Below, in pieces: positions 40,140 to 41,340 of a DNA stretch of 64,000 nucleotides; position 1 is the stretch's first letter; every line of letters starts with the position of its first letter. Both the position numbers and the translations under genes were made by a program. The notes under the pieces were generated by a model. That model searched no databases and was not told where the DNA came from. It was given only the letters and a program-made list of their open reading frames with translations. This DNA is from Rhodamnia argentea (lineage: Eukaryota; Streptophyta; Magnoliopsida; Myrtales; Myrtaceae), in the NCBI RefSeq assembly GCF_020921035.1, contig NC_063160.1, forward strand, positions 18,007,095 through 18,071,094, given 5' to 3'.

Positions 40140-41340
40140 ATTAAATAGAGGAGGTCCCCTGCCCATTAAGGCTCATGACTTTGGATATACGGCCTTCGGC
40201 AGTTTCAGTGCTTGATGGGCCGCTTCTAGGCAATCAAATTCGGGTCAGATATGTACCGCGGGTCTTATCTGGGCCTCCGACCGTTTAGGCCGAATGCCCG
40301 GCTCCTGGCACGTATGTTGGCATTTCGTGTGTACGACAAGAAGGAAGCATTTTAGGCCCAAAAATGCAGGTCCGCGGGCCCTCAATCTGGTGGGCCTTGG
40401 GAACTGGTGGACCCATAAAGTCGAAAAAATGTCCAATGGCACACATTGGGCTTGGAGGCCCATGTTAAGCCCAAAAAAGGCCTTACCATGGGCCCTGAAT
40501 ATGGTGGGCCTTGACAATAGTCCTGGTCGCAACCCATACGGGCCCATTCAAATCCCAAAATATCCAATGGGCCTATCCAACTACGTCCCACAAAGTTGGG
40601 CCCGGCCAAGGCCCAAGTGAGCTTTACCTGTTTGCCTGGCCCAATTAGTATGGCCAATGGCTTTGGCAGTCGAAGAGGGGTGCAATGTCGGAATCGATGA
40701 TGGGCTTTGAGAATGAGCCCGGCCCAATTCCACTGGCCCATTTTGGGATTGTGGGCCCAATAAAGTCCCGTGGGTCTTACCCATTCAGGGTACAACCGTG
40801 GGCATTGATAATGGGCTTTCAAGATGGGCCTAAACCCAATTCGGCTGACCCATTTTTGGATCCGTGGGCCCAATTAATTCCCTTAATATCCCATGGGCCT
40901 TTCCCATTAAGGTACACTGCTGATGAATCCATTATGCCCACTGCCTCTGCGCCGCCTTGCACTACATGGGCCCAATTAAGTTCCAAAAACCCATGGGCCT
41001 AAAGGCTACAGAACGGGCCCTAAAGAAGAAAGGGCAGTATGAATGGGCCCCACTAATGCCCAGAAATCCGGATCGATCGCCACCTGGATTGAGGGATTAA
41101 GCATGGGCCCACAATGAGCACTTCGTGGGCTAATCAACAGAGCACAATTCGGCCATTAGGTAAATGGGCCGAGTTCAGGCCTAAAATTCGGAAATAAGCC
41201 CGGTACAGCCTAGCACATTGCCGGCTTTTGCAACAGCGCACGGGACATACAGGCCCATGCTTGCATCCCGCTAATTGCAAAATCAATGGACCCGAATTAA
41301 GGCCCAATGCACTCTAATAAATATTTAATAGACTACCCAT
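40140..41340. repeat. TGGGCC/GGCCCA-rich array between the 3' ends of PYM and MRTO4
   Basis: I count about 29 occurrences of TGGGCC or its complement between 40215 and 41310, including ten perfect GGGCCC palindromes between 40375 and 41110, where chance would give less than one. The motifs belong to diverged tandem units of roughly 110-125 bp. CGCGGGCCCTCAATCTGGTG and CATGGGCCCTGAATATGGTG lie about 112 bp apart, and ATGGGCTTTGAGAATGAGCC and ATGGGCTTTCAAGATGGGCC also lie about 111 bp apart. Other frequent phrases are CCCAATT, CCCATT and AAGTCCC. No coding frame is credible. The nearest gene ends are PYM at 39834 (+) and MRTO4 at 41468 (-), so the array is intergenic or within overlapping 3' UTRs. 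Origin and role are unknown to me. Confidence 0.85.

Follow-up and report, generated by a model that had tools for sequence, protein, structure and literature searches.

A block dense in TGGGCC-type words with diverged tandem units between two converging genes of Rhodamnia argentea

A block unusually dense in TGGGCC, GGCCCA and GGGCCC was found between two converging genes, putatively PYM and MRTO4, in a stretch of 64,000 nucleotides from Rhodamnia argentea (NC_063160.1, positions 18,007,095 to 18,071,094 of the forward strand; this whole stretch is called the window below). TGGGCC is the site II word, which can be bound by TCP proteins, a group of plant growth regulators. The words are densest where a series of diverged tandem units sits, and on balance we consider the block to be a diverged, minisatellite-like and word-rich array that is probably drifting and tolerated between the converging gene ends. 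The features of the block and its surroundings are listed in Table 1.

Table 1. Features annotated in and around the word-rich block (positions in the window).
Feature	Positions	Strand	Basis or remark
Block rich in TGGGCC, GGCCCA and GGGCCC	40140-41340		25 distinct places by count
Core array	40343-41003	+	21 of 29 exact and 18 of 29 one-mismatch words; units of about 100-123 bp
Partial unit, partner of 40454-40538	40343-40417	+	Self-BLAST, alignments
Partial unit, partner of 40343-40417	40454-40538	+	Self-BLAST, alignments
Partial unit	40540-40583	+	Matches 40866-40909 at lag 326; masked score barely above 2000 shuffles
Tandem unit, one of the two best kept	40678-40787	+	Self-BLAST, profile, alignments
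Tandem unit, other of the two best kept	40788-40916	+	Self-BLAST, profile, alignments
Partial unit	40934-40988	+	Unit profile, first-round E 0.00016
Right flank	41004-41340		6 exact and 7 one-mismatch words
Last PYM exon (putative), stop 39832-39834	39601-39834	+	Open frame; position
Last MRTO4 exon (putative), stop 41468-41470	41468-41650	-	Open frame; domain of the neighbouring exon

Density of site II words

A total of 39 words were counted in the block, with TGGGCC occurring sixteen times, GGCCCA thirteen times and GGGCCC ten times, in exact agreement with the original prediction of about 29 TGGGCC or GGCCCA words and ten GGGCCC palindromes. As four pairs of the former share letters as TGGGCCCA, the 29 words occupy 25 distinct places. 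Nineteen TGGGCC or GGCCCA words were found across the remaining window, and no other 1.2 kb scanned contains more than four.

The GC content of the block (0.51) is higher than that of most of the window, which would favour base composition alone as the source of the word count, and a fall of the counts to background under a null with local GC had been named beforehand as an outcome that would speak against the array. No such fall was observed. The three-word sum of 39 compares with at most 8 when the letters of the block were shuffled 2000 times and at most 19 in 2000 dinucleotide shuffles, and GC-matched windows from elsewhere (37 overlapping windows of block length with a GC of 0.47-0.56) contain at most four words. 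TGGGCC words are thus above chance in the shuffles and in the GC-matched windows, as would be required of a site II or TCP cluster, and these three comparisons refute composition as the sole explanation, to which we give practically no chance. An order-2 Markov model trained on the block produced a maximum of 15 words and reached 29 in none of 1000 runs, whereas an order-3 model produced at least 29 words in 143 of 1000 runs because a model of this order suffices to learn the word from the block itself.

Elsewhere in the window the words occur singly or in small groups. Four TGGGCC or GGCCCA words lie within 25 bp at 62862-62886, about 40 bp upstream of an ATG at 62927 with a frame that stops after 12 codons and is possibly a short first exon; this could be an ordinary site II promoter cluster. 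Two site II words, at 58546 and 58562 (58546-58567), precede a possible start codon at 58737 (MDFGDLKEALASQ...) by about 170-190 bp; the short frame there gave no Pfam match.

Tandem units in the block

Self-comparison of the block by BLAST gave direct matches at lags of 110 bp (229 columns, 64% identity, E 1e-14), 113 bp (E 2e-7) and 326 bp, or about three periods (E 1.5e-6), as well as weaker direct matches and three inverted self-matches (E 0.004 to 0.083). In a scan in which adjacent stretches across the whole block were aligned with each other, the best score was 46.0, which exceeded all of 60 shuffles that held the words in place and randomised the spacers (maximum 40.5). With the words masked, three pairs of stretches still scored 30.5, 20.5 and 14.5 against maxima of 20.0, 18.5 and 14.0 in 2000 shuffles each, the spacer letters agreeing at 60 of 77, 51 of 59 and 26 of 35 positions; these pairs were selected after the self-matches were known and the third lies only just above its shuffle maximum. 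On the strength of these alignments, the block contains adjacent head-to-tail copies of one unit, and the diverged tandem units, about 100-123 bp long, are real independently of the words, close to the 110-125 bp that had been predicted.

An iterated unit profile recovered two good and five partial copies within 40379-40988. The partial copies already had E values between 0.00016 and 0.015 in the first round, when they were not yet part of the profile, and their detection is therefore not circular. The unit starts obtained from this profile advance in steps of 49, 101, 113, 83, 111 and 103 bp, so not every step corresponds to one unit and the register is imperfect. By our estimate the core array consists of perhaps six units. 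The right flank is without a convincing unit, its one profile match covering 20-22 bases at about 41042-41064 (E 0.018-0.29).

Self-comparison and Tandem Repeats Finder gave different answers, since BLAST of the block against itself yielded the lags of 110, 113 and 326 bp whereas Tandem Repeats Finder reported no such array in the block at scores of 40 and 30. It is because this program misses the array that we call it diverged and minisatellite-like. The earlier description of an unnamed minisatellite or element core therefore holds as far as the diverged tandem units are concerned, and fails for a regular array of the kind that standard software finds.

The distribution of the words follows that of the units, with two exact words in 40140-40342, 21 in the 661 bp of the core and six in the right flank; eight of the 29 fall outside recognisable units. 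The sites are distributed with slightly greater regularity than expected at random (P 0.005, 0.019 and 0.062 for assumed minimum distances of 6, 10 and 13), and neither helical nor unit phasing was significant at any of eight periods (10.0-11.0, 27, 55 and 109 bp). Lag autocorrelation over the whole block is weak at 111-112 bp (z about 2.1). Its highest values, at 512 and 525 bp (z about 3.3), are not explicable by a simple period of 110 bp.

Converging genes around the block

The block is located between two stop codons, one at 39834 on the plus strand and one at 41468 on the minus strand, which face each other, and the genes to which they belong therefore converge. This agrees with the predicted position between the 3' ends of PYM and MRTO4, where MRTO4 is recognised by its domain and PYM by a domain together with position. 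On the plus strand, a Mago-bind domain as in PYM was found in 34841-34990 (E 1.5e-14). The frame at 39601-39834, which we take to be the last PYM exon from its position, gave no domain match, and its best match among solved structures (E 0.0047) was a designed armadillo protein and not a PYM-like one. On the minus strand, the upstream exon frame at 42045-42311 matches RL10P_insert (E 1.4e-11) and the solved structure of an mRNA turnover protein 4 homolog (E 2.6e-8); the frame at 41468-41650 itself has no Pfam match. A separate tandem repeat, with two copies of a 143 bp unit at 86% match, was observed at 37100-37385 between putative PYM exon frames.

Promoters of ribosome-related genes often carry TGGGCC or GGCCCA words. 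From the likely place of its start codon, we presume that the promoter of MRTO4 lies at about 45500-46200. As no exact TGGGCC or GGCCCA occurs in 41341-49978, to the right of the block, this presumed promoter is without a site II word.

The block could also serve as a promoter or a source of antisense RNA, with the words and a AACCCTAA at 41388 driving a transcript antisense to MRTO4. The position of this AACCCTAA just right of the block and the title of a study that speaks of co-operation between telomeric repeats and TCP sites in gene expression would fit such a role. However, AACCCTAA is present at three places in the window when both strands are counted, so that a single one near the block lends little weight, and we regard an antisense promoter as very improbable.

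Transposon, RNA and coding content

The block might instead be a piece of a transposable element whose regulatory region brought the words with it, for instance a solo LTR, a Mutator-like element of the non-TIR kind or the tandem-repeat portion of an LTR-retrotransposon. Most of the block lies between two exact copies of an 11 bp direct repeat, GCAATCAAATT (40230-40240 and 41372-41382), and a second repeat, the 6 bp GCCGAA with TG...CA ends, reaches from 40295 to 41350. Precedents are also available in the passages of two published reports on which we draw, where LTR modules of Papaver carry TCP motifs (PMC12582370) and in maize the word GGCCCA recurs in those RLG00010 copies that overlap enhancer candidates, rather than in the family as such (PMC5522596). 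Against this, the 11 bp repeat is not rare, as 17 of 294 other segments of the window, which overlap one another, also show direct repeats of at least 11 bp with the same geometry. The scan for solo LTRs (TG...CA ends with a 4-6 bp duplication) gave an uncalibrated list of 31 candidates, two of them with a 6 bp duplication. Inverted ends amounted to two weak candidates compared with 0-2 in 20 letter shuffles, and the combination of terminal inverted repeats and target site duplication that marks a DNA transposon or MITE was not found in the block above this null. The three long frames searched contain no protein domain and the window holds no convincing second copy, the best match being 43 bp long (E 0.083); the unit profile likewise gave no further match in the window with an E value below 1. 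A transposon origin is therefore doubtful in our judgement, although it deserves more weight than an antisense promoter. A Copia-type retrotransposon with five successive open frames was annotated elsewhere in the window (5419-10020, minus strand), where the one frame searched, 6244-7968, matches RVT_2.

A search of a plasmid collection gave no match to the block, as expected for plant DNA. No Rfam family was found in the block at the gathering score, and the single match in the window, at 46913-46984, is a tRNA-Pro (TGG) gene. The block had also been suggested as a possible source of double-stranded RNA from convergent transcripts. When eight 200-base windows of each strand were folded as single strands, most stayed within background (mean -0.35, sd 1.42), and the two lowest z values, -2.60 and -2.57, are both on the minus strand. 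There was also no indication of coding content, as none of the three frames searched in the block has a Pfam match and the longest open run of 163 codons compares with a 95th percentile of 162 and a 99th of 188 in 500 letter shuffles.

Conservation of the words

In addition to the exact words, the block contains 29 one-mismatch words (25 distinct places), whereas 500 letter shuffles gave 6.6 on average and never more than 15. The mismatch is of the C>T or G>A type in 14 of these 29, against 28% of 269 such words elsewhere in the window (P 0.016 by a binomial test and 0.03 by a Fisher test, neither corrected for duplication). The excess and its lean towards C>T and G>A fit the drift of an array that would once have been denser. 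Some of the one-mismatch words need not be decayed. The site II consensus is TGGGCY, so that TGGGCT is a site II form as well, and the five one-mismatch words that read TGGGCT may still bind. CpG depletion is expected of a methylated repeat; that of the core is unremarkable overall, at the 30th percentile of 282 windows, although it ranks at the 4th percentile among 81 GC-rich windows.

Evidence on whether the words have been kept by selection is mixed when judged from the aligned copies; this comparison also bears on the earlier suggestion that the block may be a protein-binding sponge or insulator. In the word-masked alignments, 74 of 96 word letters are identical, no more than the 137 of 171 spacer letters, in a comparison that covers 16 of 19 word placements (three were unaligned and left out), counts both directions and puts the words at a disadvantage, since a masked stretch may be aligned in the wrong place. 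As complete words, on the other hand, eight of 16 exact words are kept in the same alignments compared with 30 of 241 other 6-mers, or nine of 16 against 32 of 241 if a shift of up to three bases is allowed. When the words are included in the alignment, which makes the comparison partly circular, 14 of 22 words are retained against 72 of 492 other 6-mers. The pairs behind these retention counts were picked from matches that share words and, because both directions were counted, they represent about three independent retained places; the letter and whole-word comparisons are therefore both indecisive. Whole-word retention leans towards a constraint on the words.

Such a constraint would be expected if the block were a working border between the two 3' ends, where class I TCP proteins, perhaps together with BORDER-type pausing factors, would be recruited by the many site II words and the interval would be kept open so that the transcription units are separated. 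The better retention of exact words and their concentration in the block (29 compared with at most four in any other 1.2 kb scanned) argue for this role, and the identity of the word letters, which is no higher than that of the spacers, argues against it.

Published systems, cited here from partial texts, likewise point both ways. TCP class I motifs are enriched at domain borders in rice and TCP1 lies at those of Marchantia (PMC8470105, PMC10602878), a TCP-like motif is present in 44.9% of Arabidopsis BDR1 peaks (PMC6761125), and the TCP motifs in LTR modules of Papaver are near TAD-like borders (PMC12582370). However, the TCP-like motifs of BDR peaks are described as enriched near start sites and not end sites (PMC6761125). 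In Utricularia gibba, site II is reported for high-confidence divergent rather than convergent intervals, and a TCP-related motif is among the sequences without insulator activity (PMC10663240). Loss of TCP1 in Marchantia is stated to have left genome architecture unchanged (PMC8470105). Taken together, we consider a working border to be unlikely. That the block is a putative border derived from tandem-amplified TCP sites, whose dozens of exact and near sites would act jointly as an open, TCP-bound separator and limit transcriptional interference, seems to us slightly less likely still.

Comparison with known systems

The block resembles the plant intergenic minisatellites in its local head-to-tail units of about 110 bp and in having no coding content that could be found, but its divergence puts it beyond the reach of Tandem Repeats Finder, and one regulatory word is unusually frequent in it. 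With site II or TCP promoter elements it shares the identical six-letter word on both strands; its 25 places within about 1.1 kb, at the end of a gene, set it apart from them.

The TCP-rich domain borders of rice and Marchantia are also intergenic and contain TCP-type words (PMC8470105), but what defines such borders is a contact map and not the density of words. As in the Papaver LTR modules (PMC12582370, in the part cited), the TCP words are carried by a repeat, although no retroelement ends or genes could be established in the block. GGCCCA is named site II in the cited part of a maize report, with an enrichment of about twofold in enhancer candidates (PMC5522596). A CTCF homologue is not known from plants (PMC8470105), and plant domains are said to be formed by insulators that have yet to be identified (PMC12582370).

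Among the matches listed in a search of open-licence literature, made on titles and the beginnings of abstracts where sequence words are poorly searchable, there was no tandem array of site II words at the end of a gene. Set against the published contexts, a 3'-3' junction is an unusual place for an array so rich in these words.

Origin and significance of the array

For the diverged minisatellite-like array that we prefer, the following history may be proposed. A founding unit of about 110 bp would already have carried several TGGGCC or GGCCCA words and would have been duplicated head to tail several times between the converging genes. Tandem duplication is evident from the units themselves, while the number of rounds and the mechanism, which might be slippage or unequal exchange, are our suggestion. 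The units would later have drifted by substitutions and indels, and the exact words now seen among many one-mismatch words would be the outcome of this decay. TCP proteins could probably bind the words in open chromatin, given what is known of the word. The array most likely persists through the tolerance of the 3'-3' interval and not through selection on the number of words.

With its TCP words naturally crowded together and no known promoter nearby, the block would provide a clean site at which to ask whether word number alone opens chromatin or separates genes. If it is only a drifting repeat, it would stand as a caution that tandem duplication can yield large motif counts.
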